64,000 nt of DNA from NCBI RefSeq assembly GCF_024436435.1, contig NZ_JAFMZP010000003.1, forward strand, positions 1-64,000. Reading direction: 5' to 3'. The position numbers and the translations under genes were made by a program. The DNA comes from Desertivirga xinjiangensis. Lineage in GTDB: Bacteria; Bacteroidota; Bacteroidia; Sphingobacteriales; Sphingobacteriaceae. Of the stretch, positions 32,237 to 47,446 are shown piece by piece. Every line of letters starts with the position of its first letter. Within the stretch, counting starts at the first letter, position 1. The notes under the pieces were generated by a model. The model was not told the origin of the DNA, ran no database searches, and was given only the letters and a program-made list of their open reading frames with translations.

Positions 32237-33793
32237 TTATTTGACCTGAAAAGCTCCCATTGAGAATTTCGAGTAATTGATGTCGGTGCCGTAAAAATCT
32301 TTGGCTCCCAGATCACTCAACCAGTAATTGCCTTCCATCTCCGTTTTAGGGATACCTTTGTTTATCACTCCACTGGAAGCTTTCAGTTTAAAACCCTCGG
32401 TGTGGGCAAAGCCGATTTGATAGGAAAGTGGATTGACGAATTGTGGGTCTTCATAAATGCCCTTTTCGTCTTTGACATAAAACTTATCATATCCGTAGTA
32501 AGCGTTGTTTTTAAATACAGCACTCTGACCTCCTGATTTGACAGACAGTTCTCCCTGTCCCGCGTGATAGAAAATGTTATTATAAAACTTCGAGGTCGCC
32601 AGGGCTTCGTCAGAGATAACCACACTTTCATAGTCTTTACGTAGCACAATGGTGTTATTATGTACAATTGCCGTACCCCTGGTATGATTAGCCCAAACCG
32701 GAAAATCAAACACATGCAATCCTTTAATGCCATCGTTTACACTGATATTATGTCGCACAATGGCATCTTCAGAGGTACTCGTTATCAGTACGAAGCCACC
32801 CTCGTTATCGTGAGAATAATTGTATTGAATAACGGTTCGGTAAGCATCTTCATCAGCGTCAAAAGCTTGTCCGTCTTTGCCGCCTCTGGTATTGTAAACC
32901 TCGTTGTACTGAAACGTTGCCTCATCTGTACTGCGGCACCAAAGCGCTACGCCATACCTGACCAGGTCTTCGGAAGCATTGTGCGTTTCCCATACCTGAT
33001 TATGCTCTATGAGTGCCCGGTAAGCGTAGCGTACAATAACTCCGTCACCCGCACAGTGGTGGATTTTGTTACGTCTGATCACAAAGTTGGTAATAGGCCT
33101 GTTCCCTTTTACGGCTTTAGAGCCGTCGGTAAGATTTGAAAAAATAGCCAGTCGTACCACGTTTGCGATTTCACAGTCCTCGATTAAGATATCGTCAAAT
33201 TTGCTGGCGGCAGTTCCTACAATTCCTATTCCACCGGTATTTTTCCCTTTCATCTCGAAAGAGTAATCGCCCATGATGTCATGTATGTAGAGATTTTTGA
33301 GATGAATATGTTTACGGTTACCACCATTATCTTTAATTAACACACCTAACCTGCTTCCAACTGCCGTGGTATTGTTGGTGATCTCTAAATTGTTTACTTC
33401 CCAGTAATCTATATCCTCCAGTTTGACAACTTCGTCTACGGCGCCCTGGCCATCCAACAGGGCTTTTTTCGAGCCCCCGTAAACAGATACAACAATTGGT
33501 GATAATTGACTGCCGGAACCTTTTGGTTTTAGTTGCCCGTTCCATACATCGCCAGATTTGAATAAGATGGAATCACCAGCAATAAACTCAAAATTATTTA
33601 CCTTATCCAGTGTCTTCCAGGCCTTTTCAGGTGTTTTACCATTGTTGGTATCATCGCCGTTTTTGGAGTCGATGTAAAAGTTACTTCCTGAACGTGCCAG
33701 TGGCTTGCTTGTCTCTGTTTCCTTGCAGGATATGGCCATGACAGTGCCAAGCTGCCCAAAAATGAGCAGCAACATTAATGTCTTATTTTTCAT
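32237..33793 (-). CDS. Right-handed beta-helix protein, polysaccharide-degrading type
   Basis: This 518-residue exported protein begins with a signal ending around MAISCKE, which could be a weak lipobox. The opening NFYIDSKNGDDTNNGKTPEKAWKTLDKVN is typical of environmental beta-helix proteins in which repeated strands follow. The repeats contain many asparagine-rich turns (IEDCEIANV, FVIRRNKIHHC, IEHNQVWETH, IQYNYSHDNEGGF, VHNNTIVLRK), giving about 12 coils over residues 95-420. PL6-like lyases and several glycosidases share this fold. I could not pick out a catalytic set such as the Lys/Arg pair of PL6, so the activity is open. It lies 3 bp after the FAS1/DNRLRE gene in PUL2. Confidence 0.75.
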   Translation of the reverse strand: MKNKTLMLLLIFGQLGTVMAISCKETETSKPLARSGSNFYIDSKNGDDTNNGKTPEKAWKTLDKVNNFEFIAGDSILFKSGDVWNGQLKPKGSGSQLSPIVVSVYGGSKKALLDGQGAVDEVVKLEDIDYWEVNNLEITNNTTAVGSRLGVLIKDNGGNRKHIHLKNLYIHDIMGDYSFEMKGKNTGGIGIVGTAASKFDDILIEDCEIANVVRLAIFSNLTDGSKAVKGNRPITNFVIRRNKIHHCAGDGVIVRYAYRALIEHNQVWETHNASEDLVRYGVALWCRSTDEATFQYNEVYNTRGGKDGQAFDADEDAYRTVIQYNYSHDNEGGFVLITSTSEDAIVRHNISVNDGIKGLHVFDFPVWANHTRGTAIVHNNTIVLRKDYESVVISDEALATSKFYNNIFYHAGQGELSVKSGGQSAVFKNNAYYGYDKFYVKDEKGIYEDPQFVNPLSYQIGFAHTEGFKLKASSGVINKGIPKTEMEGNYWLSDLGAKDFYGTDINYSKFSMGAFQVK

Positions 33794-33796
33794 CTA

Positions 33797-35287
33797 TTAC
33801 TGAATATTGATGGTGATTTTTAGAGGTGCTTCATAATACCCTCCGTTGTGATCTTTTGCTTCTACTTCAATCTCGTCTGTGGATCCGGTTCCTTTAAACA
33901 GGTATTTTATGGATCCATTGGCTAAGTCCGTTTGTGAGAAACTTGCGTTTACTGGTAGTGGTATCCCATATTTTACCAGGTAGCCATTTTCAGGAACTCT
34001 GGTAACGATGTAACTGATGTTCTTATCAGCCGTACCAGTCATTTTTAGTTCGCTAGTAGTTAATTTGGCAAAACCAAGCGAACGATCGATGTTTAACGGA
34101 GCTACCGACCCGAAACTCAATATGGTAGGCGGCGGACTTGACAGGCTTAAATATGCTTTATACCTGCCGGCTGAATACTCCCTTGGATAGATCTTGACGA
34201 AATTATCATTATTGTGATTCATCAGAATATTCAGGAAGGTTCTGTTAGCTCCATAAAGCTGATTGACCTGCGAGGTAACATCCATCGAAATCCATCCAAC
34301 ATATGATGCATTTAACGAAACGTTGGCTAAACTTACCCGGTCGTAAGAAGGTGCTGTTTGCCAGGTCACCGTTGTTTCATCAAAATCGGTATTTGCGCCT
34401 GCATACGCATTTAAGGACGAAGCCAGTCCCGTGAAATAAACGTAAAAATTAATTTTAGCCAATCCTATTTTATTGCCGAAGGTCGGAGTTCTTAGAGGAA
34501 ACTGAAATAATCCCATACGGTCTACCGATACATCCTTTCCATTCGAGTTTTTCATATCAATACTGGTTGCATTGTTGAAGTTCTTCGCCCTGTTTGCTGT
34601 ACCGTTTTGAATAAAGAGGTCTTTAGTTACGTCGATTATATCCGTTTGATTTCCAACAGAGCCAGAGGGAGCATCAGGAACGGCATCTTTCAGCTTGTAA
34701 AAGGTAAACTGATCAGAGACGTGAGCAATACCATTTTTGAACTCTAAATTCTGGCTCCTTATCACCGCAGCCGGAGCATTCAAGTCGCTGGAATTGTTGG
34801 CGGTAAGAATATATTCGTTTGAACTTGTAGCGCTTCGGGTATAGTAAATAAAACTGCCATTTATGGTTTCCATTTTTCTGGTTTCTCCAAGTGTCAGATC
34901 GAAGGAACGTAAACGGCCTTTAAAGATATGGTCTGATAAGATATTTTTTAGTACTACGGGTGGTACCTCAGCCAAATACTCGTAACCAAGACTCCTTACC
35001 ATACTAGCTACGGCCTGATTAGTTAAAAACAACACGGTATAATCTTCAGGCTTGTTCAGATAATCGGATAAGCCGGCAATTCTAATAGCATCTGCATATA
35101 AGTTCAGGTTAGTTAGATCCTTACTGTGATCAAGAGCCAGATATTCGCTAAATGTTACCCCCTTTAAATTGGAACCAGCATCTACTGCTTCCAATTGTTC
35201 GTTTTTTAAAAACTCCAATTTCCCGCAACCGAACCCGAAACTGAAAATAGCGAGGATCAATACATTGAATATTAATTTCCTATTCAT
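33797..35287 (-). CDS. Surface lipoprotein with FAS1, DNRLRE and CSPG-repeat domains
   Basis: This 496-residue lipoprotein has a lipobox-like end FGFGCGK (Cys21). Residues about 46-200 form a fasciclin (FAS1) domain (YTVLFLTNQAV, VLKNILSDHIFKG, INGSFIYYT, AHVSDQFTFY). Residues about 218-384 form a DNRLRE/CBM96-like beta-sandwich (AKINFYVYFTG, DETTVTWQTAPSYD, GWISMDVTSQV, NILMNHNNDNFVKIYPREYSAGRYKAYLSL). Residues about 390-496 match a chondroitin-sulfate-proteoglycan (cadherin-like) repeat (VTRVPENGYLVKYG, FSQTDLANGSIKYLF). Its position directly after SusD is where surface glycan-binding proteins (SusE/SusF equivalents) usually lie. The domain set suggests adhesion to a complex glycan; binding specificity is not visible. 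Confidence 0.8.
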   Translation of the reverse strand: MNRKLIFNVLILAIFSFGFGCGKLEFLKNEQLEAVDAGSNLKGVTFSEYLALDHSKDLTNLNLYADAIRIAGLSDYLNKPEDYTVLFLTNQAVASMVRSLGYEYLAEVPPVVLKNILSDHIFKGRLRSFDLTLGETRKMETINGSFIYYTRSATSSNEYILTANNSSDLNAPAAVIRSQNLEFKNGIAHVSDQFTFYKLKDAVPDAPSGSVGNQTDIIDVTKDLFIQNGTANRAKNFNNATSIDMKNSNGKDVSVDRMGLFQFPLRTPTFGNKIGLAKINFYVYFTGLASSLNAYAGANTDFDETTVTWQTAPSYDRVSLANVSLNASYVGWISMDVTSQVNQLYGANRTFLNILMNHNNDNFVKIYPREYSAGRYKAYLSLSSPPPTILSFGSVAPLNIDRSLGFAKLTTSELKMTGTADKNISYIVTRVPENGYLVKYGIPLPVNASFSQTDLANGSIKYLFKGTGSTDEIEVEAKDHNGGYYEAPLKITINIQ

Positions 35288-35297
35288 AATAATTTGA

Positions 35298-36728
35298 TTA
35301 TTGGTAATATGAATTTTGTTTTAGCAGGGGATTGATCCTGATCTCATTAATGTAGATCGGCCATACATAATTATCCGGATCATTCAGACTGTTATTGTTA
35401 AAGGGCTCCATCACGCTGATTGCCTTACCAGTTCTTACCAAATCGAACCAGCGTTTGCCTTCAAAACAAAGTTCCCTGGCACGCTCATTCAATATAATAT
35501 CCTCGATCTCACTTTCGTTTAATCCGGCATAATCTGCAGGGAGCAGAGCGGCTACTCCAGCTCTTACTCTCATCTGGTTAACTATGGCAATTGCATCAGG
35601 AACCAGGCTCTTTTTGTTCAGGGCTTCGGCTCTAAGCAGCAGGATATCGGATAACCTGTACATGATAATGTTCTTGTCATCCATCGTACTCCTCTGGAAA
35701 CCTGTTTTTTCAAAAAACTTCAGGATATTCCTTTTATCATCGTAGATAATGCTGGCTCTCTTATCGCTGGGCGAAAACTTTGACATCAATTGCTCACTGA
35801 TCTGGAAGGCGGGCTGGAAACCGACATCGCCGTACACCTGGATGTAAAGTGATCTTGTACCCCGCTCAGCGAAATTATAGTCGATCTCGAAGATAGATTC
35901 TGATGAGAAGCCGGTAGTGAACTGCTTAGCATAAGAGGTATTCTCTAAGGTGGTGGCATCACTCAGTGATGTAAGGGTGTAATTTGAAACGTTGGAGATA
36001 ACCCTCTGCGAAGCAGCCAGGGCCTTATCGTACTGATGCCTCCACATATAAAGATCGGTGTACAGTGCATTCACAGCACCTAGTGTTAATAAAGCTTTGG
36101 TTGTTTGTGAAGGAGTGAAGCTACCCGGCAATAGAGTCGACGCGGTATCTAAATCGGCTTCAATTCTTTGATAAACAAGAGCTGTGTCAGACCTTCCTAC
36201 GTAAAAATTATCGGTAGCGTCTTTTAATGGCTCTGTAACCAGGGGCAGTTCGCCCCAAATGCGAGTCATATAGAAATAGCAAAGTGCTCTTAATGCAAAT
36301 GCTTGTCCCATAACCTGATTATAATCAGTTGTTTTATTGAAGTATAATCCCTGATCCTTCATCAGCTTGACATTTTTAATGATCAAATTCGTTTGGTTCA
36401 CAACCGCGTAGAACTGACTCCAGCTGGTAATTCGCAAACTTGAATTAAGATTATTTGTCAAAAGATTTAATGTCTCGGTGTTTAATGAGATCGGGTTTTG
36501 TGCAACGTTATCAGCCCTGGCCTCGCCGTAAAAAACTCCTTCGGGCGCCATTGCAGCCTGTAGAAGCGTATAAGCACCATTTAATGCCGCTGTTGCCTGC
36601 GTAGTCTCTTTCCAGAAATTAGCATTGGAGTATTCTGTGATGGGATTAAGATCAAGCGCTTTTTTACAGCCTCCGGCTATCATTAATACCATAATAAGAT
36701 ATAGCGATAATTTTATCTGAACATTCAT
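35298..36728 (-). CDS. SusD/RagB-family glycan-binding lipoprotein (PUL2)
   Basis: This 476-residue SusD homologue has a lipoprotein signal ending in IAGGCKK (Cys21). Family hallmarks are NANFWKETTQATAALNGAYTLLQ near the N-terminus, the helical segment FALRALCYFYMTRIWGELPLV, and the C-terminal RLSDILLLRAEALNK, ERARELCFEGKRWFDLVRTGK and the ending YVWPIYINEIRINPLLKQNSYYQ. It lies 4 bp after the SusC gene, showing tight coupling. It forms the hinged lid on the SusC barrel at the cell surface and presents oligosaccharides for import. Confidence 0.95.
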   Translation of the reverse strand: MNVQIKLSLYLIMVLMIAGGCKKALDLNPITEYSNANFWKETTQATAALNGAYTLLQAAMAPEGVFYGEARADNVAQNPISLNTETLNLLTNNLNSSLRITSWSQFYAVVNQTNLIIKNVKLMKDQGLYFNKTTDYNQVMGQAFALRALCYFYMTRIWGELPLVTEPLKDATDNFYVGRSDTALVYQRIEADLDTASTLLPGSFTPSQTTKALLTLGAVNALYTDLYMWRHQYDKALAASQRVISNVSNYTLTSLSDATTLENTSYAKQFTTGFSSESIFEIDYNFAERGTRSLYIQVYGDVGFQPAFQISEQLMSKFSPSDKRASIIYDDKRNILKFFEKTGFQRSTMDDKNIIMYRLSDILLLRAEALNKKSLVPDAIAIVNQMRVRAGVAALLPADYAGLNESEIEDIILNERARELCFEGKRWFDLVRTGKAISVMEPFNNNSLNDPDNYVWPIYINEIRINPLLKQNSYYQ

Positions 36729-36732
36729 CGTA

Positions 36733-39700
36733 TTATAAATTAATGTTTAAAGAAAAATTGTATGACCTGGTTCTTGGGAATGCGCCTCTGTCGACACCTG
36801 CAGAGAGTGAATTTGTTGATGAACTTACTTCCGGATCATATCCTGTGTAAGAACCCAGTGTGAACAGGTTGGCGGCACTTAAGCCCAGGCTTGCTCCCGT
36901 CAGCTTGAACTTTGAAACTATCCTGTTTGGAAGTTTGTAGCTGAGTGCAATATTCTGTAACCTTACAAATGAGGCATCTTCAACAAACCTGCTGGAAACT
37001 ACATAATTCAGCATCGGATCTGTTTTTACCAACTTGGGAATATCTGTAATATCGCCCTGGTTCCTCCATCTCCGCAGCTGATCGGTTGAAAAATTCTGGT
37101 CATTCTGCGACGAGTCTAAATTGCGCTTTAACTCATTAAATACGTCTCCGCCAAGGCTATAGGTAAACAAAAAGCCCAAGGTGAAACTTTTATAACTGAA
37201 ATCGTTTTGCAATCCTCCTGTGAAGTCGGGGTTCGGATTTCCAATGATTTGAAGATCATCGTCGTTAATCACCCCGTCTTTATTAAGATCTTCCCATATC
37301 ACATCTCCTCCTTCAAAGATTCTACCATTGGAAGAACCTTGTCTATACTGTGTTACCATCCCAGTGGTTTCGTCCCTGGTGTATACGTTATCTTCATCTC
37401 TGGCATAAACTCCCAAAGATCTCAAGCCATAGAATACCCCTACCGGTTCACCTACTCTGGCCATATTAAATAGGTTTGGCCGGTAGTCCTGCCCATCTGG
37501 AAGAGATAGGATTTTACTTCTGTTCAAAGCAAATGTGAAGGTAGTTGACCATTTAAAAGGTGCGACAACATTCACCGTTGTCAGCGTAGCTTCGATACCT
37601 TTATTTTCTAATGAGCCAAAATTTCCGGGAATGGTGCTTACACCTGTAGTACCGGGCACGCTGACATCAAACAAGAGATCTTTGGTTTTCTTCAGGTAGG
37701 CGTCGGTGGTAAATACTATCCGGTTTTTAAGGAATGACAGGTCGAGACCGATATTACTATGCGATGTTGACTCCCATTTTAACAATGGATTTGGAAAGCC
37801 GGATAGGATTACAGCGTTCTGGCCCAGATATGAACCATTGTTTACGTAACCGCCCTGACCCGCATAATTTCCAATAGACTGATTTCCAGTAATTCCAAAA
37901 CTTCCTCGTAGTTTGGCATCATCTAAAAACTCAAACTTTTTGAAAAATGCTTCTTCACTAAATCTCCAGCCTGCCGATGCGGATGGGAAATAACCGAACC
38001 TGTTGTTTGTCCCGAATCTGGATGATCCGTCACGCCTTAGCAAGGCAGAAAAAAGGTATTTTCCTTTATAATCGTAATTTGCTCTTGTAAAAAATGATAA
38101 TAGCGAGTGCTGTGAAATGTTTTGTGTATAGGTTGAAAGTACGGCTGCCGCTGCTACGTTTGTCAATTGGGCATCCGGCAATCCTCTTCCTATCAGGTCA
38201 AGGTTATCCGTATTGAATTTTTGGTACGACTGGCCCAGTAAGAAATTGAAATTATGCTTTTTATCAAGGTTAAGTTTGTAGGTTAACAAATTCTCGTTGA
38301 TGAAGGAAGACGACTTTATATTCTGCAGGTAGGAACTGCTTAACTGGCCTTGCGGCAATAAGCTTGTTGGCGTAAAATTGCTAAGGTCGCTGTTTTCGTA
38401 GTCAAACCCTAAACTGGTGGTAAATCTTAGATTTTTGGCGATCCATACTTTAAAATCCTGGTTACCAAACATTCTAAAACGTTTGATCCTGTTCGCTGCC
38501 AATTGAGCTATGGCCAAAGGGTTAGGCTTACTGCCTTCGAACAAGGGAATTAACTGCCCCGATATTGGATCGTAAGGATTATATACAGGCATTGTACTTA
38601 ATGCCTGAAAAACAACACTCTGACCGCTCATGCCGGTTAATATCCGGGTATAGTCTGTATTGGAAAGGTTAAATGACGAACTGCCCGATATTGCTTTGCT
38701 AAACGTATAATATACTTTTGCAGTTGCAGTAGCCTGCTCGTAATTGGTTTCTTTGATGATAGGATCCAGGTTTTTATACCCTGCACTCAGGTAATAATTT
38801 ATATTATTATCAGATGAGCCTCCGCTTACGCTGATGTCAGCCTTATATTGTAAAGCCTGCCGGTACATGATATCATGCCAGTTCATAGATTTAGAATAAT
38901 AAGGGTGCAGCGAATCAATTACCGATTGTTTTGCAATAGGGTTAGTTGTACTATTTGAATAGGCATCAATATAAGCACTTCGCCACTGCGGGCCGTTCAA
39001 AACACCAACAGACCTGGTAAGTTCTGCCATGCTTGTATTGGCAGAAAATCGCAACACCGGCTTCTTTCCGCCCTTTCCGGTTTTGGTAGTGATCAGAATA
39101 ACACCGTTTGAAGCTCTTGATCCGTAGATCGATGCTGTTCCATCTTTTAATACTTCGATGGATTCAATATCCGCCGGATTTATATCTGCTAAGGGACTGA
39201 AGGTAGAACCATCGTCGTTCAAACCTCCTTTAAAGGTTTCCGTGTTAATAGGCACACCATCTACGATATATAAGGGCTGACTGCTGCCGTTAAGAGATGA
39301 ACCACCCCTGATCCTGACAGTTGCACCAGCACCCGGCTCGCCGGAATTGGAGGTGATCTGCAGGCCTGCGATCTTTCCCTGTAAACTTGTATTGATATCG
39401 CCCAGGGCATGTCTTTCCATTTGTTCGCCCGAAACAGATCCTACCGCACCGGTTATCTCCCGTTTCCTTTGCGTTCCGTACCCTACGGTAACAACCACTT
39501 CACTTAAATTCACACGATCTCTTTCAAGCTTAATTTCCAGGCTAGTAGTTCCTTTTATAGCGGTAGAGTAAGATTGATATCCGATATATCTGAAAACTAA
39601 AACAGGGTTGACACCGCTCACCTGGATCTTAAATTTTCCATCATTATCGCTGGAGACCACCTTATTTGTGGATAACAGGGATATAGACACTCCTGGTAAT

Positions 39701-40161
39701 GTCTCACCAGACACGGCATCTTTTACCACCCCGGATACCGTACGGACGTCCTGTGGTTGCACAGGTGCATCGGGGGCTGATACACCCAGATTTTTTAAAG
39801 TTTTCGGAGTGATAAGGATGGTGCGCTTATTAATAGCATAGGTAAAAGGTTGCTTGCTAAAAACTGCTTTTAATGCCTCTTCTAAAGCTACTCCTTTTAA
39901 ATTTACAGTTACCGGCTTTGCTCTAAGCAAATACCCTGCATCGTAAAAAATACTGTAGCCGCTCTGGTTACCTATTTCACGAAGTGTTTCTGATAAACTC
40001 GCGTTATTTTTAGTAAGACTGATCTTTTGTCCCACAGAAGCAGCGCTTACCTGCATTAATGTTATCAGGCATATGAAAAAAGACAGCTTCATAATACGCA
40101 ATACTTTAGATTTATCGCAGACGGATCGCCTGCAATAGCTTGTAATAGAAAATTTGTACAT
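36733..40161 (-). CDS. SusC/RagA-family transporter with STN signalling domain (PUL2)
   Basis: This is a 1142-residue TonB-dependent transporter. The long N-terminus (MYKFSITSYCRR then MKLSFFICLITLMQVSAAS) holds the export signal; an internal start at residue 24 is possible. Residues about 48-118 form an STN domain (LSETLREIGNQSGYSIFYD, LEEALKAVFSKQPFTYAI), the periplasmic part that contacts FecR-type anti-sigma factors. A carboxypeptidase-regulatory-like domain (about 141-213), the plug (222-335, YIVDGVPINTETF, SIEVLKDGTASIYGSRASNGVI) and a 22-strand barrel follow. The upstream fecR and sigma genes are its signalling partners. Its 5' leader is overlapped by a candidate antisense RNA. Confidence 0.96.
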   Translation of the reverse strand: MYKFSITSYCRRSVCDKSKVLRIMKLSFFICLITLMQVSAASVGQKISLTKNNASLSETLREIGNQSGYSIFYDAGYLLRAKPVTVNLKGVALEEALKAVFSKQPFTYAINKRTILITPKTLKNLGVSAPDAPVQPQDVRTVSGVVKDAVSGETLPGVSISLLSTNKVVSSDNDGKFKIQVSGVNPVLVFRYIGYQSYSTAIKGTTSLEIKLERDRVNLSEVVVTVGYGTQRKREITGAVGSVSGEQMERHALGDINTSLQGKIAGLQITSNSGEPGAGATVRIRGGSSLNGSSQPLYIVDGVPINTETFKGGLNDDGSTFSPLADINPADIESIEVLKDGTASIYGSRASNGVILITTKTGKGGKKPVLRFSANTSMAELTRSVGVLNGPQWRSAYIDAYSNSTTNPIAKQSVIDSLHPYYSKSMNWHDIMYRQALQYKADISVSGGSSDNNINYYLSAGYKNLDPIIKETNYEQATATAKVYYTFSKAISGSSSFNLSNTDYTRILTGMSGQSVVFQALSTMPVYNPYDPISGQLIPLFEGSKPNPLAIAQLAANRIKRFRMFGNQDFKVWIAKNLRFTTSLGFDYENSDLSNFTPTSLLPQGQLSSSYLQNIKSSSFINENLLTYKLNLDKKHNFNFLLGQSYQKFNTDNLDLIGRGLPDAQLTNVAAAAVLSTYTQNISQHSLLSFFTRANYDYKGKYLFSALLRRDGSSRFGTNNRFGYFPSASAGWRFSEEAFFKKFEFLDDAKLRGSFGITGNQSIGNYAGQGGYVNNGSYLGQNAVILSGFPNPLLKWESTSHSNIGLDLSFLKNRIVFTTDAYLKKTKDLLFDVSVPGTTGVSTIPGNFGSLENKGIEATLTTVNVVAPFKWSTTFTFALNRSKILSLPDGQDYRPNLFNMARVGEPVGVFYGLRSLGVYARDEDNVYTRDETTGMVTQYRQGSSNGRIFEGGDVIWEDLNKDGVINDDDLQIIGNPNPDFTGGLQNDFSYKSFTLGFLFTYSLGGDVFNELKRNLDSSQNDQNFSTDQLRRWRNQGDITDIPKLVKTDPMLNYVVSSRFVEDASFVRLQNIALSYKLPNRIVSKFKLTGASLGLSAANLFTLGSYTGYDPEVSSSTNSLSAGVDRGAFPRTRSYNFSLNINL

Positions 40162-40164
40162 TTG
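40157..40164 (+). promoter_or_regulatory. -7 box of the candidate antisense RNA
   Basis: TACATTTG on the plus strand matches TAnnTTTG perfectly and would place a start near 40171. No good -33 element at normal spacing is visible (TTG at 40140-40142 is only 14 bases away). It overlaps the susC start region, so the match could also be coincidence. Confidence 0.4.
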
Positions 40165-40170
40165 AGTAAT

Positions 40171-40267
40171 TCCTTAATTGATTGTCTCGAAAAGCGATCT
40201 TTAAGTTATCTACATCAGCTTTAAGCTGTATTCCGGAAACGGTGCGAACGTTTCCGGTTTTTTTTTT
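40171..40267 (+). ncRNA. Candidate cis-antisense RNA opposite the susC leader (DonS-like position)
   Basis: The 133-bp gap between fecR and susC contains, on the strand opposite both genes, a TAnnTTTG box (40157), then about 60 bp with a small hairpin (CAGCTTTAAGCTG), and finally a textbook intrinsic terminator at 40233-40267. This would give an RNA of about 97 bases complementary to the susC mRNA leader. In Bacteroides fragilis a cis-encoded antisense RNA (DonS) in this position represses an ECF-sigma-controlled PUL. The arrangement of sigma, anti-sigma and susC here is the same. Start site and expression are inference; the terminator is directly visible. Confidence 0.6.
40233..40267 (+). 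terminator. Strong plus-strand intrinsic terminator between fecR and susC
   Basis: CCGGAAACG and CGTTTCCGG form a perfect 9-bp stem with loop GTGCGAA, followed at once by ten Ts (40258-40267). On the minus strand, the direction of the flanking genes, the hairpin is followed by AATACAG, so it works only for plus-strand transcription. Confidence 0.85.
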
Positions 40268-40294
40268 GCAGATAACCTGGTGTTAATTTCTAAG

Positions 40295-41473
40295 TTAGTC
40301 TGTAATCAATATTCTCCTTCCTTCTATTTTATAAGTAATTCCGCTGGTAATAACCATATTATCTAATAGATCTTTGATAGAGTCATACCTGGAGATTCTG
40401 CCAAAAAACTTTTTGTCTGTAAAATCACCGTTGTATTCTACTTCTATATCGTACCAACGGGAAGCTTTTTTCATAACTTCTCTAATACCTTCATTATCAA
40501 ATATTATTAAGCCTTGTCGCCAGGCCATCACGTCGTCCAGGTTAGCTGCACGAACTGTGATACCTGATTTATCTTTAACCGAAATACCTTGCTGTCCGGG
40601 CACTAGCATGGTGGTATGGCTGCCCTTTTGCAATCTCACCGACCCTTCTGTTAAGGTTGTTTTTATTTCATCATCGTTTTTATAGGCTGAGATATTAAAA
40701 TGTGTACCCAATACCTGCACATCTACACCGTTTGCACTAACAGAAAATGGCATTTTTTTATTCTTTGCTACTTCAAAATAACCTTCACCGTTTAGAATAA
40801 CCTTACGCTGCTTACCATTGAAAGAAACTGGGTATTGTAAAGATGATGCAGCATTTAAAAACACTTTAGTTCCGTCTGGCAGTATTACTTCAAACTGCCC
40901 TCCAATAGGGGTTGCAACCGTATTGTATGCGTTCTTATCAGAAGAATTTGAAACTGCTGATGCATCATATATAATTTGACCGTTCGCATTTTTGGAAATG
41001 ATGATTCCGTTCTCATCGATGGAAGTTCCATTTTTTACATCATCAAGAACGACCTTGCTTCCATCTGCCAGTGTTAACAGGGCTTTATTTCTTATTTTGA
41101 CTTCCGATGAACTGGCCAGGGTATCGGGTTTATTGCTATTTTGAACGTATAGGATTCCAAGCGTAACCACACCTATTAAAACTGCAGCAGCCAAAAGCTT
41201 TATTACAAGCTGACGTGCGCCTATATGTTTTGTTGTTGCTGATTGCTGGTTGATTAACTGCTTCATGTTCTGAACCTGAACAGCCAGTTCACGATTCTGA
41301 CTTTGATGAGCTAGTTGTATGATAAGATCTTTTTGTTCTGCAACTTTTGCCCGAAGGCCAGGATTTTCATTTAGCCAATTTTCCCAATAATCAACATCTT
41401 CCTGGTTGGAGCGAAAACAGTAATTAAGAAAGCTTTCATCTTTTATTAAAGAAAGAATATCGCTATCGCGCAT
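40295..41473 (-). CDS. FecR-family anti-sigma factor
   Basis: This 392-residue inner-membrane regulator has a cytoplasmic N-terminal domain (about 1-85, binding the sigma factor), one membrane helix (about 89-110, LVIKLLAAAVLIGVVTLGILYV) and a periplasmic FecR domain with VATPIGGQFEVILPDGTKVFLNAASSLQYP (about 185-215). The C-terminal DUF4974 part (KASRWYDIEVEYNGDFTDKKFFGRISRYDSIKDLLDNMV) follows. It passes the substrate signal from the STN domain of SusC to the ECF sigma factor. It lies 53 bp after the sigma gene. Such proteins can act as activators as well as inhibitors, so 'anti-sigma' is the family name, not a proven sign. Confidence 0.94.
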   Translation of the reverse strand: MRDSDILSLIKDESFLNYCFRSNQEDVDYWENWLNENPGLRAKVAEQKDLIIQLAHQSQNRELAVQVQNMKQLINQQSATTKHIGARQLVIKLLAAAVLIGVVTLGILYVQNSNKPDTLASSSEVKIRNKALLTLADGSKVVLDDVKNGTSIDENGIIISKNANGQIIYDASAVSNSSDKNAYNTVATPIGGQFEVILPDGTKVFLNAASSLQYPVSFNGKQRKVILNGEGYFEVAKNKKMPFSVSANGVDVQVLGTHFNISAYKNDDEIKTTLTEGSVRLQKGSHTTMLVPGQQGISVKDKSGITVRAANLDDVMAWRQGLIIFDNEGIREVMKKASRWYDIEVEYNGDFTDKKFFGRISRYDSIKDLLDNMVITSGITYKIEGRRILITD

Positions 41474-41526
41474 AATTGTCTTATTAATTTGAACAATAGA
41501 GCGCGAGCAATCGTGTTTTCACTACT

Positions 41527-42144
41527 CTATTTGAAAAAAAATACAAATAAAAATAAAATAGTAGTGATCGCTAAAGTGAGCAATGGGGTTTGCTCTTTCT
41601 CCAACAGTAATTTAAGCTTATCTACTGCCTTGTAAATGGTATTGTAAACCGTATTAATAGAAATTCCGTTGGTATCAGCTATCTCCTGATAAGAAAGGCC
41701 GAGGTAAAATTTTTGATAAATTAACTGACGCTGTTTTGCCGGCAATTGCTCTACATAATTTTGCAGCACACGGCTTGACGCTGACTGACTTTGTTTGGTA
41801 ATATAGGTCTCTTCTACTGATGGCGACAATAAAAATTCCGGTAAATCATCTAAAACTATGCTATCACCTGCATTAAATTTTTCCTTTTTGTAAAGTTTGC
41901 GTAAGAAGGCTGTGATAATGTAGTTATGATGATGTACAACACAAATCATCTTTCCATGATTTTCCCATAAATAGAGGAAGGTATCATTTATACTGTCTTT
42001 AACTTTAGCAAGGCTGAATCCTTTTTTTAAACCAACAAAGTTTAGGTAATTATAATAGTGAGCGTAAATGTCCAGATATGCCTGTTCATCCTTATTATTC
42101 ACAAATGCATTCCATTCTTTGGTTAAACTGATTCCCTTCTCCAT
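41527..42144 (-). CDS. ECF sigma-70 factor with C-terminal membrane tail
   Basis: This 205-residue sigma factor has region 2 (about 22-95, AKVKDSINDTFLYLWENHGK) and region 4 (about 128-180, QLPAKQRQLIYQKFYLGLSYQEIADTNGISINTVYNTIYKAVDKLK), the latter with a clear helix-turn-helix. Unlike most ECF factors it ends in a hydrophobic segment of about 18 residues (TPLLTLAITTILFLFVFFFK) that could anchor it in the membrane next to FecR. It should direct transcription of PUL2 when the STN-SusC/FecR pair signals. A TTG-N19-TATATTCG promoter precedes it (42161-42190), leaving a very short leader. Confidence 0.93.
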   Translation of the reverse strand: MEKGISLTKEWNAFVNNKDEQAYLDIYAHYYNYLNFVGLKKGFSLAKVKDSINDTFLYLWENHGKMICVVHHHNYIITAFLRKLYKKEKFNAGDSIVLDDLPEFLLSPSVEETYITKQSQSASSRVLQNYVEQLPAKQRQLIYQKFYLGLSYQEIADTNGISINTVYNTIYKAVDKLKLLLEKEQTPLLTLAITTILFLFVFFFK

Positions 42145-42160
42145 TTATTATCGCGTCAAA

Positions 42161-42190
42161 CGAATATACTCAGATTTAGCCACACATCAA
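42161..42190 (-). promoter_or_regulatory. Putative housekeeping promoter of the PUL2 sigma gene
   Basis: On the minus strand TTG (42190-42188) is followed after 19 bases by TATATTCG (42168-42161), one base off the TAnnTTTG consensus. The transcript would start about 10 bases before the ATG. Further upstream an AT-rich inverted repeat ACTAATT/AATTAGT lies near 42206-42223. Confidence 0.55.
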
Positions 42191-42366
42191 GACGCTTGGG
42201 TACTAATTTATTAATTAGTCACTAAAAAAGAGTTATATTTCCATTAATTTCAATAAATAGGCGCTAAAAACCGTGAAAATAACAATAGAAATGAGTGGTT
42301 AAGCCAAAAAATTAAGAAAATTTTCATAGCAGCTATATTCACGACAGTCATGAATGTAAACAGAAC

Positions 42367-42401
42367 GAAGGCCCCGAAATTTAAAAAATTCACGAGGCCT
42401 C
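42367..42401 (-). terminator. Likely terminator of the 42433-44580 gene
   Basis: On the minus strand GAGGCCTCGTGAATT and AATTTCGGGGCCTTC pair with minor mismatches just beyond the stop codon of the beta-helix gene. The following sequence (GTTCTGTTT) is only moderately T-rich. Confidence 0.45.
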
Positions 42402-42432
42402 TATAAACATTACAGCATTTTCATCGGCAAAA

Positions 42433-44580
42433 TTATAGCTTGCCCACTCTTGCAGATCTATTGCCTGTCACTCCTGTTAATTTGATGATATAAGTGCCAG
42501 CTGCCAGGTTTGATAAGTTTAGATCTATTTGCTGATCAGTGCTGTCTATATTTCCATTAATTAAAGTAGTGCCTTGTAAATCAATTACGCTGTATTTGCT
42601 GTAAACGCCAGCATCTACGGCTATAGTTACATTACTTTGGGTTGGATTGGGATAAACACTTACACTATTAGCAGATAAGCCGATTTTTACTACCTGTGTA
42701 GCCAGATGGGTAAGTTTCCCATCAAGGTCTTCCTGCTCTAATTTATAGTAGTAGGTTCCGCCAACAACTGTGCGGTCTGTATGAGCATAGCTAAGCGGTG
42801 CGGTACTGTTGTTGTTAGCACCCGCAACTTTTGTGACCAGGTCATAGCTCTTACCATCGGTACTCCGACTTATGATGTATTGTTTGTTGCTGGTTTCCGA
42901 GGCAACCTTCCAGTCTAGTTGCGCTCCTACTGTGGTTGCTCTTGCAGTAAAGCTGATGAATGATACCGGCAATACCGTATGATATTCTACAGCTCCAATA
43001 TCTATAACACCATTTTTGCGGGCCCTGCCATTGAAATCGACTGCCAATGTGTTATAACTGTTATTACCCGCATCTTTGGCAGGACTGGTGGTTTGCGGTG
43101 CTAAAAAAGCCAAGTCGCCAGGTGTTACACTGATGAACAATGGATCTGTATCAATTAAATTGGTTGGATCTGCTGATACCTGTGAGGTTTGCTGAATAAT
43201 ATTATAGTTAACGCTGCCAAGCAATGTAGCAGGATTAACTACATAAATATCAGGGGTATTGGTATCGTTAGTTGCTGCTGTGAAGGTATTGTTGAAAAAG
43301 ATATTGTTATGCAGATACGTTTTTTTATCCGTAAAGGAGACATTGCTGCCTACCGCGAGAACTTGTAAACCTGCAGTGTAATTCGCTGCACTTCCGGCAC
43401 GTGTATTTTTGTTGTCATAGAATGTATTGTTAATGAAAACGGCGCCATAGTTACTGCCATTTTGGGTTCCATATACTCCGCCATTGCTTCCTGTACTATT
43501 TTTGTAGAAAATACAGTTTTGGAAAGTTGGTCTTCCGGAAAAGTTATAAACAGCTCCTCCTCCGTCAGCGCCGCCGACTGAATTTTCTGCGAATAAGCAA
43601 TTGCTAAAGGTTGGTAGACCTCCACGTATGTCTATTGCGCCACCTCTTCCATTGTGACTGCGATTGAGTTTAAACGTACAGTTAGCGAAGGTAGCACTAC
43701 TCGAGTTGGTGCTTACTGCTCCTCCATAAGAACCAAAGTTCTCAGAAAAAACCGTATTCTTTATTGTTACATTGCTGGACACTACCAACGACATTGCAGC
43801 GCCATAAATGTAACCTGCCGTTCTCGGTGTAGCATTCGTATTATAACATTTACTGATCTCGCAATTGTCAAGGGTTGGGCTACTATTGTTGATGTAAAAT
43901 CCGGCACCTCCTGCTGCTGAGTTGTCACCAACCGCTCTATGGATGCTTGCTGTGACATTGGAAATAGTAAACCCGGTACCAGAATCCAAAATATACATTC
44001 CGGCCCCGAACCTCCTGTCTACATTTTTTGAATTGACAGACAGCGTTGAACTACCCGAAGCATCGCCTTTTGTCAATGTAAATCCATCGAACACAGTGTT
44101 GCTGGTTAAACCAATGGCAATGACCACATGGTGCACATTATCGGTTTTATTTTGAGTCATATAATTGCTTGCATTTGCACTAGTCTCGGTTACATCATCA
44201 CTATTCAAATCGCCACTCAAGATAGTTTCATTTCCTGCTATGCGTTGTGTTTCATTATCTTCAGTGCCGGCAAAACCGCCATAAATACTCACTCCATCTT
44301 TAAGTACAAAAGCATTATCCCTATGTGTTGCATTGACTACAGTGGGTGTATTTGCAGGTCTGTTTGGTAAATAAGTGCCGCCTTTCACAAAAATTCTGTC
44401 TCCGGCTTGAGCGGTATTGATCACATCTTGCAAGTCTTGAGACGCAGTGGCCCAACTTGTAGCTGTAGCAGCAGCGCCTGTTCCATCGGTTTTGACATAA
44501 TAAGTGGTTTGTGCACTGGTATTAAAAGCAAGTAAGCTTAAGCATAGCACTCCCAATGTTTTTAAGTAAAGTTTTCTCAT
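42433..44580 (-). CDS. Secreted beta-helix protein with type IX sorting domain
   Basis: This 715-residue protein has a signal peptide (1-23, NTSAQ). The start of the mature part (TYYVKTDGTGAAATATSWATASQDLQDVINTAQAGDRIFVKGGTY) and the segment VSIYGGFAGTEDNETQR are typical of 'choice-of-anchor Q'/polymorphic beta-helix proteins. Asparagine-rich coils follow to about residue 540 (NNSSPTLDNCEIS, NVTIKNTVFSENF, ATFANCTFKLN). A fibronectin-like stretch (about 545-630, FTARATTVGAQLDWKVASETSNKQYIISR) and a type IX sorting domain (about 636-715, SVYPNPTQSNVTI...GTYIIKLTG) close it. It is probably a surface adhesin or glycan-active protein; no catalytic residues are evident. It has its own direct-repeat control region upstream. 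Confidence 0.85.
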   Translation of the reverse strand: MRKLYLKTLGVLCLSLLAFNTSAQTTYYVKTDGTGAAATATSWATASQDLQDVINTAQAGDRIFVKGGTYLPNRPANTPTVVNATHRDNAFVLKDGVSIYGGFAGTEDNETQRIAGNETILSGDLNSDDVTETSANASNYMTQNKTDNVHHVVIAIGLTSNTVFDGFTLTKGDASGSSTLSVNSKNVDRRFGAGMYILDSGTGFTISNVTASIHRAVGDNSAAGGAGFYINNSSPTLDNCEISKCYNTNATPRTAGYIYGAAMSLVVSSNVTIKNTVFSENFGSYGGAVSTNSSSATFANCTFKLNRSHNGRGGAIDIRGGLPTFSNCLFAENSVGGADGGGAVYNFSGRPTFQNCIFYKNSTGSNGGVYGTQNGSNYGAVFINNTFYDNKNTRAGSAANYTAGLQVLAVGSNVSFTDKKTYLHNNIFFNNTFTAATNDTNTPDIYVVNPATLLGSVNYNIIQQTSQVSADPTNLIDTDPLFISVTPGDLAFLAPQTTSPAKDAGNNSYNTLAVDFNGRARKNGVIDIGAVEYHTVLPVSFISFTARATTVGAQLDWKVASETSNKQYIISRSTDGKSYDLVTKVAGANNNSTAPLSYAHTDRTVVGGTYYYKLEQEDLDGKLTHLATQVVKIGLSANSVSVYPNPTQSNVTIAVDAGVYSKYSVIDLQGTTLINGNIDSTDQQIDLNLSNLAAGTYIIKLTGVTGNRSARVGKL

Positions 44581-44668
44581 ATTGTTTAATTTGGTTTACC
44601 ATGATGGCATTATCAGGGTCTGGTCGTTATAAACGGTTATGACAAAACTAAATGCATGATGTATCGGG

Positions 44669-44706
44669 AGGGTTCATTTTTGTACGGAAATGGTTTGGTT
44701 TTGTAC
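44669..44706 (-). promoter_or_regulatory. 21-bp-spaced direct repeat upstream of the beta-helix gene
   Basis: On the minus strand GTACAAAACCAAACCATT (from 44706) is followed by GTACAAAAATGAACCCTC (from 44685). The two GTACAAAA cores are exactly 21 bp apart, two helical turns, about 100-125 bp before the start codon. This is the pattern expected for an AraC-type or hybrid two-component activator. The rest of the 44581-44898 gap shows no clear promoter for the plus-strand gene. Confidence 0.55.
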
Positions 44707-44898
44707 AATTGATTATGTAGCTAATCAATCGCCACTGCTATCGCCAGCCGCCCCGCTGTCTTCGCACTAAGATTAGCGTATGTAGTTCAGTTAAATTATT
44801 TTAAACTCTTTAAGCTTACGAAAGTTAAACACTAACAAGTTTACACAAACAGATCAAAGACACAGCTATCTAAAAATTAAACAAACGAACCCAAAGCT

Positions 44899-45456
44899 AT
44901 GAACAAATACAAAATTGCAGTTATCGTAGGAAGTCTTCGTAAGGAATCTTACAATTTAAAAACAGCGAAGGCTTTATTAGCTCTTGCACCAGAATCACTA
45001 AGTCTGGAAATGTTAAGCATCGCAGAACTTCCTATGTTTAACGAAGATCTGGAAGCGACGCCACCGCATGAGTGGGTCACATTCCGGGAGCAAATCCGTG
45101 CGGCTGATGGACTTCTTTTTCTGACGCCAGAATACAACCGTTCGGTGCCAGCTGTTTTAAAAAATGCTATAGATGTAGGTTCCCGCCCTTACGGACAGAA
45201 CTCATGGGACGGAAAACCGGCAGCTGTAGTGAGCGTTTCGATTGGAAACATTAGTGGATTCGGAGCTAATCATCATTTGCGTCAATCGCTGGTCTTTGTG
45301 AATGTGCCTACCATGGCTCAGCCTGAAGCGTACATAGGCGGAGCAACTGCTCTATTTGACGAGAGCGGAAACCTGACTAATGAATCTACAAGGGGGTTTC
45401 TGAAAACCTTTATAACAGCCTTTGAAAAATGGGTTGATACTCATGCAAAAAAATGA
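44899..45456 (+). CDS. NADPH-dependent FMN reductase (flavodoxin-like)
   Basis: This 185-residue cytoplasmic flavoprotein of the NADPH-dependent FMN reductase / azo- and chromate-reductase family has the FMN phosphate loop GSLRKESYNLKTAKAL (about 12-27), DGLLFLTPEYNRSVPAVLKNAIDVGSR (about 70-96, isoalloxazine contact) and WDGKPAAVVSVSIGNISGFGANHHLRQ (about 103-129). It reduces FMN, quinones or xenobiotics with NAD(P)H; the physiological substrate is unknown. The stop overlaps the next start by 4 bp (ATGA), so it is coupled to the DUF1206 membrane gene, a pairing that suggests a stress or redox role. Confidence 0.9.
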   Translation: MNKYKIAVIVGSLRKESYNLKTAKALLALAPESLSLEMLSIAELPMFNEDLEATPPHEWVTFREQIRAADGLLFLTPEYNRSVPAVLKNAIDVGSRPYGQNSWDGKPAAVVSVSIGNISGFGANHHLRQSLVFVNVPTMAQPEAYIGGATALFDESGNLTNESTRGFLKTFITAFEKWVDTHAKK

Positions 45457-46286
45457 TCTTTATATCTAGTATGAATTTAGCACAAGAAAGATCGCCAGCC
45501 TGGATTCGGCCTGTAGCCAAAACGGGCCTTTTTGCAAAAGGCATAGTTTACTGTCTTATTGGGTTGCTTGCCCTTATGTCCGCTTTTCAAATTAATGGTC
45601 AGGCGGCAGGTAAAAGTGATAAGGCTGGGTCCATCCAATTCCTTTTAGAAATGTCGGGAGGAAAGATTGTACTTTTATTTATTTCTATCGGATTGTTAGC
45701 CTACAGCGTCTGGCGTTTCTTACAAACATTTTTAGACACTGAACATAAGGGTAGCAGACCGAAAGGAATTGCCAAACGCTTCGGCTATTTTTTTAGCGGT
45801 CTTACCTATCTGTCTATCTGCTTCCTAACAGTTAAGGCGATAATTGAAGGCAGCTCCGATTCCGGAGGATCATCTAACTCACAGATTCAAAGCTTAATGA
45901 AACACCCTCTCGGGATGTGGGTGATGGTTGTCATTGGGCTAATCTTTACCGGAATAGGCGTTTACCAAATATGGTATGGTAGTTCGGAGAAATACCGCAA
46001 TCATGTCGATGTTCAGAAGCTTAGTCAAAAAGCTTCGTTTTCTCTGCTAAGGGCTGGAAAAGCAGGATATATTTCGAGGGGCATTGTGTGGCTTATAGTT
46101 TCTTTTCTTTTTTTGAAAGCTGCATATCAACACAATGCGTCAGAAGCGGGTGGCACAGGTTCAGCCTTCAGCTTCGTTCAGGAAGGCCCTTTCGGAACAT
46201 ATTTACTTGCCGCACTCGCATTGGGACTCATCTGCTATGGTGTGATGAATTTTATCAGAGCAGCTTTTGAAAACCTCGACCGTTAG
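45453..46286 (+). CDS. DUF1206 integral membrane protein
   Basis: This is a 277-residue inner-membrane protein with six predicted helices arranged as three repeats of two helices. Each repeat starts with a basic aromatic motif: ARPVAKTGLFAKGIVYCLIG-type at about 21-40, KRFGYFFSGLTYLSIC at about 108-123 and LRAGKAGYISRGIVWLIV at about 198-215. This is the DUF1206 pattern; no biochemical function is established. The chosen start overlaps the stop of the FMN reductase gene; an alternative ATG at 45471 (MNLAQERSP) would shorten it by six residues. A short hairpin AATCCT/AGGATT (46295-46317) lies between it and the converging PL9 gene. Confidence 0.88.
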   Translation: MIFISSMNLAQERSPAWIRPVAKTGLFAKGIVYCLIGLLALMSAFQINGQAAGKSDKAGSIQFLLEMSGGKIVLLFISIGLLAYSVWRFLQTFLDTEHKGSRPKGIAKRFGYFFSGLTYLSICFLTVKAIIEGSSDSGGSSNSQIQSLMKHPLGMWVMVVIGLIFTGIGVYQIWYGSSEKYRNHVDVQKLSQKASFSLLRAGKAGYISRGIVWLIVSFLFLKAAYQHNASEAGGTGSAFSFVQEGPFGTYLLAALALGLICYGVMNFIRAAFENLDR

Positions 46287-46315
46287 TATTTAGGAATCCT
46301 ATTTATAAAAGAGGA

Positions 46316-47446
46316 TTATTTAACCTTCATGAAGTTGATGTCCGGCAAACTTCCGTCGGCCTTACGAGGTTTTTTGAGTTCACTGATTTCTAAACTTATA
46401 AAGTTATCTGGCTGCAAATTTTGATTAAGTTGCCAGTTATTACCGCTTATTTCTTTTAAGTCGGCTTCCAGAGATCCGGGCGTTCCGAGTACTATACAAT
46501 CTTTCACGGTAAGTTTAGATACAGGATTCTTCTTTCCAAAACTCAGGTTCTTTTGTTTGTTATCGTAAGCCTTACAACCAATCAAAGTAACCTCTCCACG
46601 ATTGCTATTATGATCAAAGCCATTTTTAACGTTGCCTGCACTGACGCAATTGGTGTAAGTAGCATTGTGCTTCAACAACTTGTTATCACTTCCCCCAGAT
46701 TTAAATCCGTTACCATCCCCACCGCTCAACTGGCCATTTTTAAGTATTCCGTTGCTGAAAGCCCAGCAATCTTCAAAAACGGTGCTTACATTATCAGTCT
46801 GCTTCAAATACCCATCCCAGCCATCGTCGAGATTTTGCCATGCCCGGCAGCCTTTGAATTTATTTCCAGACCCTACGTCAATTTTACATGCAAATCCATC
46901 GGCGTTTTCAATCTTAGAATCAGCATTAAAGTAAGAATCGCAGTTTAGAATTAAGTTGTTTGCAGCATGACTATCTAATTGCAGTCCGGTATCTGAACAT
47001 TGTGAAAAAGAGCAATTTTCGATAAGGTTGTTATTACCATTGATTAAAATGCCGTTATCACCAGCTTTTGTTACCTCTATCCCTTTAATTTCCCAGTAAC
47101 TTGCTCTTAAAATAATTCCCTGATTAGAGTTCCCTTCGCCCAAAGCACTAAAATCGAATATTGGCCTGGTCTTATTGTTTTTATGAGAAATCAAAACAAT
47201 GGGTAGTTTCTCCGATCCGTCAACTTGTATATCTATCCTTTTTTGAAATTTATAATCGCCACTTTTTACGAGAATCACGTCACCGGGCTTAGCAGCTTTT
47301 AGTGCTTGCAACACTTCGTCCACAGAACTAACTACAGTTTCCAATTCTTTTACGTTTAGGACTCTCCTACTTGTACAAGCTTGCAGCGTAAAAGCAGAAA
47401 GGAAGAATACCAGACTAAGTAAATTGTGGGATCTTAGATATTTCAT
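46316..47446 (-). CDS. PL9-family pectate lyase, lipoprotein
   Basis: This 376-residue protein has a clear lipobox (LQAC, Cys24), so it is probably anchored in the outer membrane. The beta-helix carries the PL9 calcium site: D183 in NADGFACK and D207, D208, D211 in NLDDGWD. The catalytic base would be K249 in GNGFKSGG. The spacings 24, 1, 3 and 38 residues are very close to Dickeya Pel9A (D209, D233, D234, D237, K273, as I recall them). It therefore should cleave polygalacturonate by beta-elimination. It is a single gene with no PUL partners next to it; the plus-strand gene before it converges on it. Confidence 0.9.
   Translation of the reverse strand: MKYLRSHNLLSLVFFLSAFTLQACTSRRVLNVKELETVVSSVDEVLQALKAAKPGDVILVKSGDYKFQKRIDIQVDGSEKLPIVLISHKNNKTRPIFDFSALGEGNSNQGIILRASYWEIKGIEVTKAGDNGILINGNNNLIENCSFSQCSDTGLQLDSHAANNLILNCDSYFNADSKIENADGFACKIDVGSGNKFKGCRAWQNLDDGWDGYLKQTDNVSTVFEDCWAFSNGILKNGQLSGGDGNGFKSGGSDNKLLKHNATYTNCVSAGNVKNGFDHNSNRGEVTLIGCKAYDNKQKNLSFGKKNPVSKLTVKDCIVLGTPGSLEADLKEISGNNWQLNQNLQPDNFISLEISELKKPRKADGSLPDINFMKVK

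Follow-up and report, generated by a model that had tools for sequence, protein, structure and literature searches.

The fecR–susC gap

In the window, i.e. the whole 64,000-nucleotide stretch of DNA that was analysed, Pfam matches place genes for a sigma factor, a FecR anti-sigma factor, SusC and SusD in succession (Table 1), an order that marks a sigma/anti-sigma susCD locus; the sigma factor is taken to be of the ECF type because of its size and its FecR partner. Within positions 32237-47446 the susCD pair lies among beta-helix proteins, one of which has a Por secretion tail, with a fasciclin/CBM96/cadherin-like protein and a Pel9A-like/rhamnogalacturonan-lyase-like protein as other neighbours; these surroundings hint that the substrate may be a uronate polysaccharide, pectin or another.

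The gap between fecR and susC measures 133 bp and, as the sequence-only reading had noticed, carries an intrinsic terminator on the plus strand between two minus-strand genes, its stem (CCGGAAACG-7 nt-CGTTTCCGG, with six G-C among the nine pairs) being followed by ten Ts. The TAnnTTTG box that the same reading had placed about 70 bp before the terminator is present as an exact match, TACATTTG, which lies 68 nt ahead of the stem and contains, as CAT, the start codon of susC. TAnnTTTG is given in one report as the −7 consensus of the primary sigma factor of Bacteroidetes (PMC7366714). The supposed −33 TTG could not be upheld, the nearest candidate (at 40140) leaving a spacer of 14 nt; nor does a −33 element appear in a profile of 51 loci, and the same report states that no such element was recognisable in F. 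johnsoniae either (PMC7366714).

The RNA predicted from these two elements, taken through the end of the T run, contains no ATG and is encoded, by coordinates and strand, opposite susC, in keeping with the proposal that it would cover the susC leader. The plus strand of 40165-40270, slightly longer than the predicted RNA, folds better than its shuffles (z −3.15), whilst the small hairpin ahead of the terminator has mean z values across loci of −0.43 in the antisense and −0.09 in the sense reading. Rfam 15 gave no match at gathering scores anywhere in the window. A repeat or mobile element was considered and set aside: the nine other matches of the gap in the genome are all of 15-22 bases, and none of the five inspected lies within a fecR-susC gap.

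Table 1. Genes and predicted elements of the locus, in positions of the window.
Feature	Position	Strand	Basis or remark
susD	35298..36728	-	Pfam
susC (STN, CarbopepD_reg_2, Plug)	36733..40161	-	Pfam; presumed target
-7-type promoter box (exact TAnnTTTG)	40157..40164	+	overlaps susC start codon
Predicted antisense RNA, ~99 nt	40169..40267	+	start inferred ~5 nt past the box
First arm of 12-bp outer stem, minus-strand (susC leader) RNA	40203..40214		weak, diffuse support over 110 loci
Small hairpin CAGCT-TTA-AGCTG	40216..40228	+	5' of terminator; weak cross-locus support
Intrinsic terminator hairpin, 9-bp stem, 7-nt loop	40233..40257	+	covariation in 51 loci
T10 run of terminator	40258..40267	+	sequence
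Second arm of 12-bp outer stem	40267..40278		weak, diffuse support over 110 loci
fecR anti-sigma factor	40295..41473	-	Pfam
Sigma factor (Sigma70_r4_2)	41527..42144	-	Pfam; taken as ECF type

Recurrence of the antisense terminator and the promoter box

As one terminator in 18 kb is not significant alone (14 terminator-like sites in the 18 kb scanned, where shuffles led us to expect 16.3), we examined recurrence across loci. FecR loci were parsed by script from the same genome, its family and named genomes, the last mostly of Sphingobacteriales and Chitinophagales, and a gap was kept when 60-400 bp separated fecR from the next gene, which yielded 154 distinct gaps; the gene after fecR was assumed to be SusC from its position and the look of its N-terminus. 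The genome itself has 32 matches to PF04773 (39 to PF16344), from which 30 loci were fetched; four gaps below 60 bp and one of 504 bp (L015) fall outside its count. The named genomes supplied 80 FecR loci, 49 of them from Pedobacter, Chitinophaga or Mucilaginibacter, with 77 of the 80 gaps usable. A family member with a genome of 5.1 Mb (G020) has 91 FecR_C matches, more than any other of the 41 genomes searched.

An antisense terminator was recognised in 111 of the 154 gaps and a sense one in 4, against a shuffled mean of 13.1 (sd 3.4; 10 rounds of dinucleotide shuffling), leaving 43 gaps with no recognised antisense terminator; for strong terminators (at least 7 pairs, at least 4 of them G-C) the counts are 106 antisense, 4 sense and 2.8 in shuffles. 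The first round, confined to the genome and its relatives, had given 56 antisense and 2 sense terminators in 77 gaps, with a box within −12 to +8 of the start in 51. Separated by source, box, antisense terminator and both together are found in 15, 17 and 12 of the 24 usable gaps of the genome itself, in 36, 37 and 30 of the 53 gaps at the other first-round loci, and in 57, 56 and 46 of the 77 gaps of the named genomes. The two elements co-occur (88 gaps with both, 24 with neither, 20 with the box only, 22 with the terminator only; Fisher p 6e-5), although p values overstate independence here because the gaps are related by descent. The box usually lies some 55-95 nt before the terminator stem, and the estimated RNA, counted to the end of the stem, has a median length of 90.5 nt in the 88 gaps with both elements. 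The locus had been presented as a single case, a framing that proves too modest, since many gaps in its own and the named genomes carry the antisense terminator, often together with the box.

TAnnTTTG is the commonest antisense-strand pattern of the form XXnnXXXX near the start, occurring in 108 of the 154 gaps (the exact box being absent from 46) as against 4 of 334 starts of other genes in the same loci; an earlier control had given 51/77 targets versus 7/179. Its register relative to the susC start is −1 in 61 gaps, −5 in 36, 0 in nine and elsewhere in three: in the −5 class the ATG falls within CAAATGTA, and in the −1 class it comes after, e.g. CAAATGTATG. This shift of 4 nt points to a promoter rather than a translation signal, which should stay put.

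A further observation concerns L015 (G000:C19, near 470 kb), whose fecR-susC gap of 504 bp holds two tandem copies of the antisense unit; the repeated stretch of some 200 bp takes in the susC start region as well as the terminator, and its copies have diverged in stem and tails.

Strand specificity of the conserved hairpin

Loci for structural comparison were picked by box and gap length, blind to the terminator, and 51 of the 52 listed were aligned with MAFFT. Over the 255 columns RNAalifold returned the terminator hairpin as the sole structure, with double changes in 7 of its 7 pairs. When the nine pairs of the window's own hairpin are projected on the alignment, compensatory double changes occur at all nine, 87.9% of cells are paired (74.9 in shuffles) and 79 cells show double changes (25.5 in shuffles, sd 7.5), values far above those for versions slid by 1-3 columns. 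Among the same cells, 63 are G-U, which pair in the antisense RNA only, and 12 are A-C, i.e. G-U in the sense RNA, where shuffles give 92 and 51, respectively. A related count on all 154 gaps, started from seeds with Watson-Crick pairs only, was obtained for 72 of them, the first break being G-U in 31, A-C in 6 and of another kind in 35. The excess of G-U over A-C indicates that folding and selection concern the antisense RNA, and speaks against selection for a hairpin of the susC leader or a palindrome in the DNA. The conservation of the terminator in related loci, on which the sequence-only reading had staked its proposal, is therefore observed, together with covariation that is specific to one strand.

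We regard as very improbable the reverse assignment, by which the hairpin would belong to the leader of the susC mRNA or serve as a DNA operator, and CAAAnnTA would signal the start of translation. It draws on the fold of the minus-strand RNA of the window's gap, which is good (z −5.0) through an extra 12-bp outer stem enclosing both hairpins, and on the hairpin flanks of 110 loci, which in the sense reading show better pairing with the mate from the same locus than with mates assigned by permutation (z −4.3, 0/2000 permutations; z −0.7 in the antisense reading). Nevertheless, T runs accompany the hairpin on the antisense side in 111 gaps and on the sense side in 4, and the wobble asymmetry favours the antisense RNA. 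Where a CAAA precedes the start, nnTA comes next in 107/117 targets as against 2/33 controls, and the motif shifts its register against the ATG. The effect in the sense flanks is moreover diffuse, the median rank of the true mate being 0.35 and ranks of at most 0.05 occurring in 6% of loci, approximately as expected by chance; we accordingly do not claim the outer stem for single loci, and these data give at most a hint of a structured susC leader.

Association with fecR and taxonomic distribution

Thirty susC loci of the same genome, taken from 56 matches, were divided into 21 with no FecR-like match in the 1.3-1.4 kb upstream and nine with FecR. The box occurs in 7 of the 9 susC genes with an upstream FecR and in 1 of the 21 without; within 250 nt of the latter an antisense terminator is found in 3 of 21 and a sense terminator in 5 of 21. 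These figures bear on the proposal that the hairpin is an insulator, merely halting spurious antisense transcription before it reaches fecR and the sigma factor gene. The position of the hairpin just downstream of fecR would suit such a role, and bacterial antisense transcription has been called widespread (PMC7366714), but the co-occurrence of a matching promoter box at the start codon and the counts at susC genes without fecR make the proposal improbable.

The sole locus among the 21 to have both box and antisense terminator is L116 (G000:C23:75778-78798). The divergent frame upstream of its susC presumably encodes an IclR-like regulator.

A mainly trans-acting RNA, directed at other susC leaders, would be compatible with the presence of several paralogous units per genome (the 12 of 24 gaps noted above) and with a GGTTAA-like stretch that recurs near the RNA 5' end. 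As a shared seed, however, GGTTAA/TTAACC was rejected: TTAACC is about equally common upstream of susC without fecR (4/21, vs 23/94) and is hence not specific, so that we consider a predominantly trans-acting RNA scarcely probable.

Amongst the gaps sorted by taxon, those of named Sphingobacteriales (35 gaps; box 26, antisense terminator 25, sense 1) and named Chitinophagales (31 gaps; 22, 26 and 0) are the most numerous. Metagenome-assembled genomes (MAGs) labelled Sphingobacteriales contribute four gaps (box 4, antisense terminator 3, sense 0) and those labelled Bacteroidetes or Bacteroidota only three (3, 3 and 1), with two each from Dyadobacter (1, 1 and 0) and Flavobacterium (1, 0 and 0). 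Two further families of the class were chosen by matches to Mfa-like fimbrillin. In one of them (f82) 18 gaps include 8 with the box, 9 with the antisense terminator, 5 with both and 1 with a sense terminator; in the other (f33) 13 gaps of 60-600 bp (28/30 loci) include 1 with the box, none with the antisense terminator and 2 with a sense terminator, and at two more of its loci (L249, L251) the called start, perhaps a miscall, falls within an antisense terminator. A sample of the phylum outside the family, with 24 loci and 18 gaps of at least 60 bp, contains the box in 2, the antisense terminator in 4, both in 1 and a sense terminator in 2. Judged from these samples, Sphingobacteriales and Chitinophagales commonly have the trait, and its occurrence elsewhere is patchy.

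Proposed mechanism

The interpretation that we favour, and consider probable from position, strand, box, terminator and predicted length, is that the gap encodes, behind a promoter of the housekeeping type, a DonS-like cis-antisense RNA that reduces leaky expression of susC; the DonS-like character suggested by the sequence-only reading is supported to this extent. The primary sigma factor would read the TAnnTTTG promoter on the susC start codon, so that the RNA would start a few bases upstream of the susC ATG, be transcribed back through the susC leader for ~99 nt and stop at the intrinsic terminator before fecR; such an RNA would necessarily be complementary to the leader of susC. As long as FecR holds the ECF sigma factor, the antisense RNA would pair with stray susC leaders, blocking their translation or provoking their cleavage, and sense polymerases might in addition be hindered by the antisense polymerase. 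Release of the sigma factor would let sense RNA outnumber antisense RNA, and the latter would thus serve the polysaccharide utilisation locus (PUL) as a leak filter or threshold, as is thought for DonS. Repression is not assured, because the PUL-associated antisense RNAs described for B. thetaiotaomicron include some that correlate positively with their susC beside others that are anti-correlated.

A less likely, though by no means negligible, explanation is transcriptional interference, in which antisense transcription or the polymerase at the susC start hinders susC and the RNA is a by-product. The placement of the box on the start codon, mostly in two fixed registers (−1 and −5), would be consistent with this, as would the body of the RNA, whose sequence is little conserved in the profile of 51 loci. 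In contrast, compensatory changes preserve the terminator, which lies at a median of ~90 nt, and this suggests that the RNA requires a fixed end; the terminator could, however, do no more than keep antisense reading out of fecR. The present sequence data appear to fit RNA pairing and transcriptional interference alike.

More tentatively, and at somewhat less than even probability, the cis-antisense gene with its promoter in the susC start may be a standard component of FecI/FecR-SusC systems in a large share of Bacteroidia, and some species may have dozens of copies in their genome; most receptors of this kind would then be set against a silencer of their own; at some loci the outer stem of the sense RNA might create a two-state switch between leader and antisense RNA. 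If the favoured interpretation is true, post-transcriptional silencing of glycan-uptake loci would be common in other Bacteroidota, beside control by ECF sigma factors, and no speciality of gut Bacteroides. The signature, TAnnTTTG on the susC ATG with a terminator stem downstream, lends itself to scoring in any genome, and with it the purpose of antisense RNA at FecIR-controlled receptors becomes testable in tractable species.

Comparison with known systems

The DonS family was reportedly described by Cao et al. in 2016 as PUL-associated cis-antisense RNAs of Bacteroides fragilis, and DonS is said to sit in an ECF/anti-sigma PUL; the FopS small RNAs of B. thetaiotaomicron, by comparison, reportedly act in trans. 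A published account gives the DonS family of Bacteroides as 78-128-nt RNAs antisense to susC homologues that lower PUL expression (PMC7366714), by a mechanism that another source calls unknown (PMC11697453). The predicted RNA of the present element resembles this family in being short, at 99 nt from a putative start, and antisense to a PUL susC homologue, and the element combines a −7 box of the primary-sigma type with a conserved antisense intrinsic terminator. It differs in belonging, by its named relatives, to other orders (Sphingobacteriales and Chitinophagales), in a promoter that overlaps the susC ATG, and in being known from sequence alone; the likeness drawn here is one of layout, and we infer by analogy that the element may work as DonS does.

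The PUL-associated antisense RNAs reported for B. thetaiotaomicron, at first 10 and later 32 (PMC10994844), resemble the present units in being many per genome and paired with susC homologues, but as described there they rest on RNA-seq and in part on northern blots, whereas ours are predicted. The FopS paralogues, listed in one source as nine intergenic, four antisense and one 3'-UTR-derived (PMC11697453), are comparable, by that description, as a multicopy small RNA family tied to PUL control. A transcriptome paper on Flavobacterium psychrophilum cites antisense RNAs for 15 B. fragilis PULs and offers its own list of antisense RNAs as a starting point (PMC9723704), and none of the matches listed from the open-access literature described antisense RNAs of PULs for Sphingobacteriales or Chitinophagales. 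The kind of element is known from Bacteroides, and its wider distribution is a real addition.
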